In this document: piece after piece, positions 55-4,109 of the stretch
How positions within the stretch are numbered: the first letter of the stretch is position 1
Layout of the letters: each line of letters begins with the position of its first letter
Assembly: GCA_903941105.1 (NCBI GenBank)
Contig: CAJANL010000199.1
Location: forward strand, 1-64,000
DNA length: 64,000 nucleotides
Direction: 5' to 3'
Source: an uncultured Rhodospirillaceae bacterium
Lineage (GTDB): Bacteria; Pseudomonadota; Alphaproteobacteria; Rhodospirillales; Magnetospirillaceae
Translations under genes and position numbers: made by a program
Notes under the pieces: generated by a model
Told to the model about the DNA's origin: nothing
Seen by the model: only the letters and a program-made list of their open reading frames with translations
Databases searched by the model: none

Positions 55-483
55 TCAGCGTTCTTCACAGCCGACTTGGTAGTTGGGGCCGGTGAGCAAT
101 TCGACGGGCGTGACGAAGGTCAGGTGGACCACGCCAAAATACGGTCCACTGGTGCCCAGGTGGTGCCAGTGCGAGAAAAGGAGTTCCTCGGGCGAACCGT
201 GGTCGTAGCCGCGCTTGACGACATTGACGGCGCGGCGGCCGTCGGGAAACTCGATCGAAGTCGCCATTCCCTCGCTAATAGCGGTTTCGAAGAGATTGAT
301 GGGACTTGGTTGCTCGCCCTCGGGCGCCCGGAACATATCGAAATCGACCCAGACCGTGCCAGTGTCGTTGTCCGTGTCGTAGCAACCCCAGTGCCCTTCC
401 GGCTCGCGAATGCACTGCCACTGCTCGGGAATGCGGAAGCTGATGGCGTTCCAGAAGGTGACCGGTTTCAGCTTCGCCCCCAT
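55..483 (-). CDS. hypothetical protein (142 aa), candidate immunity/accessory protein
   Basis: ORF 11 nt downstream of another minus-strand ORF in an apparent operon with the toxin-like gene; lower-GC, non-repetitive protein. Confidence 0.6.
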   Translation of the reverse strand: MGAKLKPVTFWNAISFRIPEQWQCIREPEGHWGCYDTDNDTGTVWVDFDMFRAPEGEQPSPINLFETAISEGMATSIEFPDGRRAVNVVKRGYDHGSPEELLFSHWHHLGTSGPYFGVVHLTFVTPVELLTGPNYQVGCEER

Positions 484-494
484 TGCCCTGTCCT

Positions 495-1289
495 TCAGTC
501 GCTCGGATCGATACGCAGATTGCTTAGCTTACTGCGGGCGCTCGAGGTCCGGACCTTCGGGGTTTCCTTCGGCTGGGATGCGCGCCAGGCATTGTACTCG
601 GCGGGGGTGGTGCGGTGGACCGGTTCCTTAGAACCACGAATGACCAAGGGGCGTATGGTCGAAGGGTCGTCGTCCCACAGCTCATCACGGTAGTAAGGGC
701 TGTTGTGCGGGAATTTCCACTTCTCTTCTGGACGGTACCACCCTTCGATGGATCCGCGAGGACCACGGGCGAGTGCGTCGCGGATGGCATCGTGTCCCCA
801 TACTTTCCCGCTGGCCCGCGCTCGGCCACGGCCGGCCTTACCGAGGCACCGGTATCCATCGCCCAGAAAAGTATCTATTGCATCGCGCAACGGGTCAAAG
901 TGGGGAACGTAGCCCTCCACTCGCTGTCCGATAAGATATGGCGGGTCGAATGAGTATTTGGAATTTGGCAGCCCGTCTACCCAATAGCAGCGGGTGTAGC
1001 GAAAATGGAAAGGTGACCATCGCCGACTATAACCCAGCAATCTGTCAAATACAAAAATCGGCCGAACGGTGGGTTCCCAATCTCCGGCTGCTACGCAGAT
1101 ATACATGTCGTCCACTGGAAGCGCGCCGATGAGATGCGTCATCGGCACGTCTTCGCAGGGATAAGGCGAGAATGGGATGCAATATAACTTACCGAACCGC
1201 TCCGTGAGGGCGCGGCTGAAGGCCAGCTCATCCCTCACGGTCAACGCGACATGGCATAGCCTAAAGTACCCGTCTCGGCGGTAGCTCAT
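495..1289 (-). CDS. hypothetical protein (264 aa)
   Basis: ORF 31 nt downstream of the 691-aa ORF, same strand; globular, aromatic-rich composition. Confidence 0.65.
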   Translation of the reverse strand: MSYRRDGYFRLCHVALTVRDELAFSRALTERFGKLYCIPFSPYPCEDVPMTHLIGALPVDDMYICVAAGDWEPTVRPIFVFDRLLGYSRRWSPFHFRYTRCYWVDGLPNSKYSFDPPYLIGQRVEGYVPHFDPLRDAIDTFLGDGYRCLGKAGRGRARASGKVWGHDAIRDALARGPRGSIEGWYRPEEKWKFPHNSPYYRDELWDDDPSTIRPLVIRGSKEPVHRTTPAEYNAWRASQPKETPKVRTSSARSKLSNLRIDPSD

Positions 1290-1320
1290 TCCCCATGGTT
1301 GGCAGTTTGTTCCGACTGCG

Positions 1321-3396
1321 TCAAGGGGATTTTAGCTGCCAGCGCTTAGGTACTAGTACGACATCATGATGGACTTTGTTGTCGTCCTTATCGAAGTCAT
1401 GATCCAATAATCTACGGATGCGTTCGGCATTCTCAAGCTCTCGGCTGGTCGGCTTTCCCGTCCGCGGATCGACATCCACCGTCTGAACGTGGACGAACCG
1501 GCCATCCGGTGTCTGGAATGTCATATCTGTGTATCCGCCGCCCGGGTGCGGGTTATTCCAGACAACACCACGCCCTGGGATATGGTACTCCTTCAATTCC
1601 TTGCCGGTTTCTTGCTCCCTGCCGCCCAGCACATGCGTCCATCCAGGATTCGCTCGCAGAAGCTCGTCCCGCCAGCGATCCATGTCGGCCTTGGTGGCCG
1701 CATTGCCGCGGCGCTCGATGATGTTGGCGTCGGGGTCTTCCGGTTCCGCCGGGAAGATGAGAATGTTCGGGCGTTCGGGATCGATGATCGGTGTTCCATA
1801 GCCCTCGATCTTGACTTGCGGCGGGGTCAGGTCGGTGCCTGAGCGTCCCGGTTTCGAGGGGTCAAGGCCAGGGTTCGGCGGCAACGATGGTGCGGGCTGG
1901 CTTGGCGGCGGCGCCGAAATGTCCGGCATGTCGGGCAGGGTCAGTTCCATATCCGGAAGCAAGGGCGGATTGCCCGGCAGCTCGGGCAATTCGACGGCGG
2001 ATTTTCCCAGCGCCTCGAGCAGCTTCCCCATTTCAATGGTGCCTGCCGCAGCCGCTCCGCCGAATCCCCCTTCGAGGATGAGGTCTCTCTTTTCCCAGGG
2101 GTTCCTCATGTAGGCCAATTGCTCGCCTTCCGGCGTATCCTCGCCATCGGCGAACGGCACCCTCCCGCCGCCGGCATGGTCGATGGCATCCTGCAGGTGA
2201 GCGGCGGAAGCCGGATCGCGCTGGTGCAACCGGCTCAGCAGGTCGGCGACGTCGCCGCGACCCTGGTCGCCGTTGTTCTGGATCACCTGCCCCAATTGCC
2301 CCGGGACGTCGCCGAAGTCGGTGGTGCCGGCCCAGGCCTCGGCCATGCGGTCGTGGGCCTGGATGCCCTCCTCGTCGATACTGTGGCCCCGATCGGCAAA
2401 GGGGTTGTCGCCGCCGGGCACGGTCAGCGCCTCGGGCACCTTTGGCGCCGGTTCGGAGCCATCGAAGCCCTCGCCGAACGGGGCCAGGCGGAAGGGCAGG
2501 TGCTCACCGGTGGCTTCGGCCAGCTGGCCCTGCAGGTCGGCCGCTTTGGCGGGATCAAGCTCGCCCAGGCGCCCCAGCACATCGGCGACGTCGCCGCGGC
2601 CCTGGTCGCCGTAGTCGGCGACGGCACGGGCGAAGGTCGGCACCGCCACCCGGAAGTCGCCGGTCCGCGCCAGCCCGCCGGCCCAGCCCTGGTGCTCGTC
2701 GGCGCCGATCGGGGTGATGGTGTGGCCGGGGAAGGGATCGCGCGGCTCCGCCACCTTGGCGGTGAGCGCCCCGGCGAAGGGTTTCAGTTTGGCGCCGGGT
2801 GGCAGGCCCTCGGCGGCGGCCTTCAGCAGCATGTTGGCCGCGGGCGGCACCCCCAGCTTCTCCAGCAGGCTGGTCTGGCGCTTTGGCGGAGTGTGGGCGA
2901 ACAGGCTGCTGGCCTGCTTTTCATTGGGCGGGCCGAACAGCCCAGTGATCACGCTTTGTTCTTCCTGCTTCAGTTTCGGCGCCGGATTGTCCTCCTTCGG
3001 CAGTGCCTCTGGCCTGGCGCCCGCCACGCCGTAGGGATGGTAGCCGCGCGCCTCGGCCTTAAGCGGCGGGTCAGGTTCGACGGTCTGCTGCGGCAGGCTC
3101 TCCGGCATGTCCAGCAGGCCGCCGGCCTGACTGCCCGGCTCTGCGTTCATGCCGCTGTCGGGCATGCCGATGTTGCCGAACAGGCCGTCCTCCGGCATGG
3201 TCCAGCGGATTAAGTCGGCGGCGGCGGAGACGTTGGGCTCGAAGGCCGGGTCGTAGCCGCCCGTAGGGACATCGGATCCGGAGAAGTCGCCCTCCGGCAT
3301 CTGCTGGATTTCCGTCGCGTCGTCCGTTCCGGCGCCGATGGTGGCCGGCATGGCCTCGGCGACATCCGGCATTTCGCTAGAGGCGAAGCCACCCAT
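1321..3396 (-). CDS. large proline/glycine-rich protein with two internal ~70-aa repeats and a C-terminal nuclease-like domain (polymorphic-toxin-like)
   Basis: ORF continues to 3465, but an ATG at 3396 has an upstream AAGGAGA; repeat 'GDQGRGDVAD(V/L)L.RL...DPA.AA.LQ'; C-terminus 'GGGYTDMTFQTPDGRFVHVQTVDVDPRTGKPTSRELENAERIRRLL'. Confidence 0.7.
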   Translation of the reverse strand: MGGFASSEMPDVAEAMPATIGAGTDDATEIQQMPEGDFSGSDVPTGGYDPAFEPNVSAAADLIRWTMPEDGLFGNIGMPDSGMNAEPGSQAGGLLDMPESLPQQTVEPDPPLKAEARGYHPYGVAGARPEALPKEDNPAPKLKQEEQSVITGLFGPPNEKQASSLFAHTPPKRQTSLLEKLGVPPAANMLLKAAAEGLPPGAKLKPFAGALTAKVAEPRDPFPGHTITPIGADEHQGWAGGLARTGDFRVAVPTFARAVADYGDQGRGDVADVLGRLGELDPAKAADLQGQLAEATGEHLPFRLAPFGEGFDGSEPAPKVPEALTVPGGDNPFADRGHSIDEEGIQAHDRMAEAWAGTTDFGDVPGQLGQVIQNNGDQGRGDVADLLSRLHQRDPASAAHLQDAIDHAGGGRVPFADGEDTPEGEQLAYMRNPWEKRDLILEGGFGGAAAAGTIEMGKLLEALGKSAVELPELPGNPPLLPDMELTLPDMPDISAPPPSQPAPSLPPNPGLDPSKPGRSGTDLTPPQVKIEGYGTPIIDPERPNILIFPAEPEDPDANIIERRGNAATKADMDRWRDELLRANPGWTHVLGGREQETGKELKEYHIPGRGVVWNNPHPGGGYTDMTFQTPDGRFVHVQTVDVDPRTGKPTSRELENAERIRRLLDHDFDKDDNKVHHDVVLVPKRWQLKSP
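2150..2700 (-). repeat. two diverged ~70-codon tandem-domain repeats inside the 691-aa ORF
   Basis: Both copies read WAG..(T)GDF...(N/D)YGDQGRGDVADxLxRLxxxDPAxAAxLQ....xxPF. Confidence 0.6.
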
Positions 3397-3563
3397 GGGA
3401 AGGTCTCCTTGACTGCTCGCGCCGGGACTGCCCCGGGGCGTCCATGGGACCATATGCAAGGCCACAGGTATTTGTCAAGGAATATGTTCTTGCCTCGCTC
3501 ACGTGAATGGTCTATATCGGGAACATTCGCCCGCTCGGGCGCCATGTCAAAAGGAGGCCCGCC

Positions 3564-4109
3564 ATGGGCGGTTTCGGCAATGAAGCGTTGAGCCCGACGG
3601 CCCTGGCCGGGCCGCTCGGCTCCCCCTTGTCGCTGCAGAAGGGTGCCCAGTCGGCCGCCATGGGTCTGCCGCTGGAAGCGTCACTGCGCAACAAGCAGCT
3701 GCGGCAGGACCTGGGCCAGCACCTGACCACCTTCCAGACCATGGAGGCGATCCAAGCCCGCCGCGAGGGCCGGCAGCCCGGCGTGGCGGCGACGGTGGCG
3801 CCAATGGTGGGGGCGGCGGTCGCCTCGTACTTCGTGCCGCCGATGGCGCCGACCTTCATGAAAATGGGCATGGCCGCCTCCGCCGCCAGCCGTGCGCCCC
3901 TGCCAGCGCATTCGGCGGCGCAGGGACTGCAGTTGCAGCTGACCCATCGGGCCCCGGCGCAGAGCGTCAACCTGCTTGAAAGCGCCCAGGCGACCCAGCG
4001 GGCCAAGCTGTCGGCGATCGGCATCGGCTCGGGCGGCGGCTCTTCGGTGGCGCTGCAGGAAGGCCTGACCCGGAAGGCGGCCAAGAACGGCTACGACATC
4101 GGGGCATGA
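3564..4109 (+). CDS. hypothetical protein starting MGGFGNEAL, central hydrophobic segment
   Basis: ATG 3564 preceded by AAGGAGG; ORF to 4109; divergent from the 691-aa MGGF protein. Confidence 0.6.
   Translation: MGGFGNEALSPTALAGPLGSPLSLQKGAQSAAMGLPLEASLRNKQLRQDLGQHLTTFQTMEAIQARREGRQPGVAATVAPMVGAAVASYFVPPMAPTFMKMGMAASAASRAPLPAHSAAQGLQLQLTHRAPAQSVNLLESAQATQRAKLSAIGIGSGGGSSVALQEGLTRKAAKNGYDIGA

Follow-up and report, generated by a model that had tools for sequence, protein, structure and literature searches.

A predicted polymorphic toxin-immunity operon with a carrier family of Magnetospirillum relatives

Positions 55-3396 of a 64,000-nucleotide (nt) stretch of DNA from an uncultured Rhodospirillaceae bacterium of the Magnetospirillaceae (contig CAJANL010000199.1, assembly GCA_903941105.1; the whole stretch is referred to as the window) hold three open reading frames (ORFs) of 691, 264 and 142 amino acids (aa), all of them on the minus strand and in the same direction. 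From the analyses described here we conclude that this locus is, with high probability, a Magnetospirillaceae polymorphic toxin-immunity operon, which consists of a carrier, an interchangeable nuclease-like toxin and a probable immunity protein of 264 aa. According to the mechanism we propose, the N-terminal ~530 residues of the 691-aa protein, which include two copies of a module, would act as the carrier, and the last ~150 residues would represent an interchangeable toxin, most likely a PD-(D/E)XK (restriction-endonuclease-like) nuclease. In the cytoplasm of a competitor, the toxin would cut nucleic acid; in that of the producer, it would be bound and neutralised by the 264-aa protein. The 142-aa protein may have a second immunity function or an accessory role. 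Polymorphic toxins as a general concept are already known; judged by co-occurrence, the toxin, the linked family (probable immunity proteins) and the carrier family in relatives of Magnetospirillum are new, and all of them lie outside the databases searched.

The ORF coordinates bear out the layout given in a preliminary description of this DNA, which had reported the three ORFs with gaps of 31 and 11 nt: the carrier with its C-terminal toxin domain, assigned by homologue comparison, occupies 1321..3396, the 264-aa ORF follows 31 nt downstream (495..1289) and the 142-aa ORF another 11 nt further on (55..483). The 691-aa protein begins with a low-complexity N-terminus, and the two internal repeats noticed earlier are real, since they align with a Smith-Waterman score of 143, compared with a mean of 31.3 (standard deviation 5.7) and a maximum of 58 for 2000 shuffles. 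They represent a module of ~80 aa. Repeat A (residues 225-302, 2491..2724, minus strand; HTIxxxGAxEHxxWA...YGDQGRGDVADxLGRL) is the family module of Magnetospirillaceae carriers, and repeat B, identified by repeat alignment, covers residues 338-415 (2152..2385, minus strand). The proline-rich linker DISAPPPSQPAPSLPPNPGLDPSKPG (1846..1923, minus strand) and the compact C-terminus, which had been described as well, are both present. None of the three operon proteins matched a family in Pfam, NCBIfam, PADLOC or, by sequence, the PDB, and a search of PHROGs gave one insignificant match only, which agrees with the earlier proposal of a new carrier without a recognised trafficking domain. A tblastn search of plasmid and phage sequences gave no match, and literature searches on the carrier or on DUF6973 toxins found nothing.

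The module is shared by a whole set of related proteins. The region around residues 219-409 matches ~20 proteins in 10 of the 54 other genomes of the family, with E-values down to 4e-27, and some Magnetospirillaceae genomes encode several module-bearing paralogues. A scan of a collection of genome contigs, in which the whole 691-aa protein as query gave no match but the module alignment did, adds names of hosts: Magnetospirillum moscoviense, M. molischianum and M. aberrantis, together with Magnetospirillum sp. UT-4 and a number of metagenome-assembled genomes (MAGs). Most of the relatives are built from PG_binding_1, the module, a TPR-like stretch, a proline-rich linker and a variable ending. 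The endings include a Tlde1/YkuD transpeptidase, DUF6973 (E 1e-24) and a BPSL0067 hydrolase (E 1e-20); the remaining ones are without a profile match, and by eye one of them is CHAP-like and one ParB-like. Different small genes stand behind different endings. The window's carrier has in common with the other Magnetospirillaceae PG-binding carriers the module, the proline-rich linker and a C-terminal toxin with a small downstream gene; however, it lacks PG_binding_1 and contains the module twice, whereas most of the others start with PG_binding_1 and have a TPR-like region.

Because the shared module is joined to other C-termini with different small genes behind them, we regard the 691-aa protein as a polymorphic toxin carrier. 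The check proposed earlier, whether the C-terminus varies on a constant N-terminal part, was run on the homologues and the variation was found, so that the description of the protein as a polymorphic carrier holds. Among the findings that the preliminary description had named as contrary to it, none of those accessible to computation appeared. The locus resembles polymorphic toxin systems (Zhang et al. 2012, PMC3482391) in its constant N-terminal part, its variable C-terminal toxin and its probable immunity gene directly downstream, and the resemblance extends to stand-alone toxin cassettes (genomes G433 and G256) and tandem immunity genes (G148). In our scans the carrier family was confined to Magnetospirillaceae and Rhodospirillales MAGs, except for one weak alphaproteobacterial relative (locus L081, 1-2229, MAG WMHbin7), in which a single related module is part of a protein that also has an alpha/beta-hydrolase domain. 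This protein is possibly a further branch of the family.

The toxin domain itself also recurs on other proteins, as is typical of polymorphic toxins. It comprises residues 540-691 (1321..1779, minus strand), and neither Pfam nor NCBIfam has a family that matches these C-terminal ~150 aa. Homologues of the last 138 residues occur in unrelated proteins of G132, G280 and G433; profile searches of selected loci added homologues in G148, G360 and, weakly, G256, so that the domain terminates unrelated carriers in five other genomes (G132, G280, G433, G148 and G360). A toxin profile search over 399 genomes of the phylum returned the window itself only. Short stand-alone toxin ORFs of cassette-like appearance are found in G433 (L044:8318-8686) and G256 (L061:7722-8123); the G256 ORF and the end of a carrier-like ORF overlap, and a frameshifted carrier is possible there. 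Directly behind the toxin domain, homologues of the 264-aa protein are encoded in G132, G280, G148 and G256, either with a short overlap or up to 34 nt apart, and in G148 the genes of this family form a tandem array. The linked downstream gene, another hallmark of polymorphic toxins, is thus present, as a linkage, for the 264-aa family. The G+C content at third codon positions is 0.656 for the toxin and 0.655 for the 264-aa gene, 0.84 for the carrier and 0.78 for the 142-aa gene; since the first two values are nearly equal and lower than that of the carrier, the toxin and the 264-aa gene appear to have been acquired as a single cassette.

An AlphaFold model of the toxin domain, computed from the single sequence, contains helices at model positions 30-43 and 112-132 and strands at 48-52, 63-67, 71-75, 85-89, 95-101 and 138-144. 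The order αβββαβ is, at low confidence, that of the PD-(D/E)XK core, with an extra strand or strands before the catalytic pair. In a Foldseek search against the PDB, the best four matches were NucS/EndoMS, followed by entries for Bax1, AdnAB, McrBC, XisH, Cas4-like proteins, Card1 and RecE, most of which we take to be PD-(D/E)XK proteins or proteins with a domain of this kind; the matches in a viral library include many proteins annotated as PD-(D/E)XK, Cas4, VRR-NUC or Holliday junction resolvase. As none of the matches is significant singly, the case rests on the agreement among them. From this the toxin domain is likely to have a PD-(D/E)XK-like nuclease fold.

Several observations weigh against the overall interpretation. 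The confidence of the single-sequence model is low (mean predicted local distance difference test score, pLDDT, 52.6; predicted template modelling score, pTM, 0.52), no Foldseek match of the toxin domain reached E<0.001, and the position of the canonical ExK lysine is occupied by Val640. In addition, the distances among toxins and among immunity proteins were uncorrelated over six pairs (Mantel r ~0), in a test in which identities of 16-39% lie near saturation, and no secretion apparatus was identified when markers of the type VI secretion system (T6SS), the extracellular contractile injection system (eCIS) and VirB4 were searched.

The missing lysine and the low model confidence, together with the lack of a sequence match to nuclease families, would also fit a polymorphic toxin operon in which the C-terminal domain is no nuclease but another enzyme or a binding domain of similar alpha/beta order, rich in beta strands. 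We consider this unlikely, as at least 8 of the first 11 PDB matches, which come from entries for NucS/EndoMS, AdnAB, a Bax1 complex, McrBC and XisH, are PD-(D/E)XK proteins or contain one (a membership that we partly assume), many PD-(D/E)XK proteins are among the viral-library matches, and the domain has an invariant Asp on the second core strand with a polar residue 14 positions further on. The earlier assignment of the C-terminus to a PD-(D/E)XK-like nuclease is retained: it is supported by the predicted topology and the enrichment among the Foldseek matches, but not by the active-site lysine or by the confidence of the model.

The candidate active-site residues (all on the minus strand) can be named from the alignment with the model. 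Asp624 (1525..1527), the 'PD' Asp, lies where the second core strand starts and is invariant in nine homologues. Gln638 (1483..1485) takes the place of the ExK Glu, a position at which the homologues have Q, N, D or S. The third strand does not carry (D/E/Q)xK, the window having QTV and the homologues never a Lys at the third position. Glu653 (1438..1440), on the helix after the third strand, is again invariant in nine homologues and represents a possible migrated acidic residue, and at the end of the last strand Lys684 (1345..1347) corresponds to a basic residue (K/R) at or adjoining this position in the aligned homologues. The invariant helix Glu and the basic residue of the last strand may substitute for the lost Lys. 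NgoMIV and Cfr10I are PD-(D/E)XK enzymes with a migrated active site, in which the helix after the third strand gives the catalytic acidic residue. The window's toxin is like them in having an acidic residue on this helix; however, NgoMIV and Cfr10I keep the third-strand lysine, which the window's toxin family does not. A question which thereby becomes testable is whether the canonical lysine is dispensable for the function of a PD-(D/E)XK fold.

With Tox-REase-1 to -10 the window's toxin shares the predicted alpha/beta core, the second-core-strand Asp and a Gln at the (E/Q)xK position, but it differs from them in having no Pfam match and a Val in place of the (E/Q)xK Lys (PMC3482391). Since the pattern D-[EQ]xK is closely kept in the ten Tox-REase clades (Zhang et al., PMC3482391) and the window's toxin has QTV, it would be a divergent clade; for the same reason, the lack of the Lys, we label it PD-(D/E)XK-like and not as a member of a Tox-REase clade.

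Either of the two downstream proteins had been put forward as the immunity factor. Linkage to this toxin type is seen for both families, more often for the 264-aa than for the 142-aa family. Because toxin domain and 264-aa protein are inherited together on several carriers, we favour the 264-aa protein as the likely immunity protein, while the 142-aa protein is the weaker candidate and a possible second immunity protein. The evidence for the latter comes from G360, where the gene behind the toxin, ~385 bp apart, encodes a homologue of it. Within this gap, L095 2618-3004 weakly matches the 264-aa family and is possibly a frameshifted relic of it. Conversely, the actual immunity protein could be the 142-aa one, with the 264-aa protein serving as an adaptor or as a second effector, which would fit the situation in G360, with its 264-aa gene at best a broken remnant. 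This arrangement is improbable given the four other genomes in which 264-aa homologues stand directly behind the toxin, in one of them as a tandem array, and in which no 142-aa homologue was found. The AlphaFold model of the 142-aa protein was too poor to interpret.

The predicted localisation of the 264-aa protein is cytosolic: neither a signal peptide nor a transmembrane segment was detected in this protein, and its homologues likewise have no N-terminal signal or transmembrane segment. In contrast, the genes behind the amidase-like and DUF6973 toxins encode N-terminal hydrophobic or signal-like segments, and one amidase-associated gene has a sub-threshold STY0301 match. As the amidase-linked genes have such segments and the 264-aa family does not, a cytoplasmic target for the toxin of the window and peptidoglycan as target of the amidase-like toxins would fit. 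Members of both downstream families also occur apart from toxins. Genes of the 264-aa family without a detectable adjoining toxin in G256 (L060 6172-6933, L062 6424-7296) are candidates for orphan immunity genes, and a fragment with 66% identity over 47 aa lies beside a transposase-like ORF in G030 (L041, G030:C330 2080-2928). Distant relatives of the 142-aa protein are found away from toxins, e.g. beside a DnaK-like gene in G237; relatives at L096 7275-8435 and L097 6658-11082 are ~380 aa long and lie next to a DnaK-like gene or in tandem, and no toxin was recognised in their vicinity.

For the delivery of the toxin, we searched the 11 carrier genomes for T6SS (TssB, PF05591), eCIS (Pvc16, PF14065) and type IV secretion system (T4SS; VirB4, PF03135) markers. 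All three were absent from the genome of the window, which is 99.75% complete; among the carrier genomes, Pvc16 was present only in G019 and VirB4 only in G022 and G041. Delivery by a T6SS, an eCIS or a VirB4-type T4SS was considered and is unsupported. Tlde1 and BPSL0067 domains are linked to T6SS contexts, and together with TssB in the carrier genome G022 this would be consistent with an ordinary T6SS cargo effector; however, TssB is lacking not only in the window's genome but also in 9 of the 10 other carrier genomes, which makes this explanation very improbable. That the locus encodes no toxin at all but a repeat protein that is structural or associated with the cell wall and whose C-terminal resemblance is due to chance, as its low-complexity N-terminus and lack of a predicted secretion signal might suggest, is more improbable still in view of the swapped toxin C-termini and linked downstream genes of its relatives.

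We thus retain the polymorphic toxin-immunity operon, which differs from other such systems (PMC3482391) in that the carrier has no recognised trafficking domain and the genome no T6SS, eCIS/Photorhabdus virulence cassette (PVC) or VirB4 markers. The carrier has no transmembrane segment and no hydrophobic N-terminus either. Tentatively, the module carriers, and likewise the proteins with PG_binding_1 that carry this toxin in other Alphaproteobacteria, might use an unrecognised route other than a T6SS, an eCIS or a VirB4-type T4SS, and the toxin might be a nuclease of the restriction-endonuclease fold with its active site moved off (E/Q)xK. In what way such toxins would be delivered by alphaproteobacteria that have neither a type VI system nor a contractile injector hereby becomes a testable question. 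RTX-like GGSGxDTLTGN repeats were observed in or adjoining carriers at L026 4872-7076 and L074 5423-6337, a possible hint of type I export.

Upstream of the carrier, a ribosome-binding site (AAGGAG, 3405..3410, minus strand) lies 5' of the ATG, preceded by a sigma-70-like promoter sequence (TTGACA-18-TATGGT, 3449..3478, minus strand), which is a consensus match only (10 of 12 positions) in a 4.3-kb region with 5 such sites compared with 0.7 expected. At the other end, the window starts at base 1 of the 64,891-bp contig, so that further downstream genes, if any, are off the contig. A divergent 181-aa gene (3564-4109, plus strand) has a strong ribosome-binding site (AAAGGAGG), and its product begins with MGGF, as does the carrier. 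It was rejected as a member of the system because relatives of it are encoded in 20 of the 55 genomes of the family, about one in each, and most of these genomes lack the carrier; it is probably a flanking chromosomal gene.
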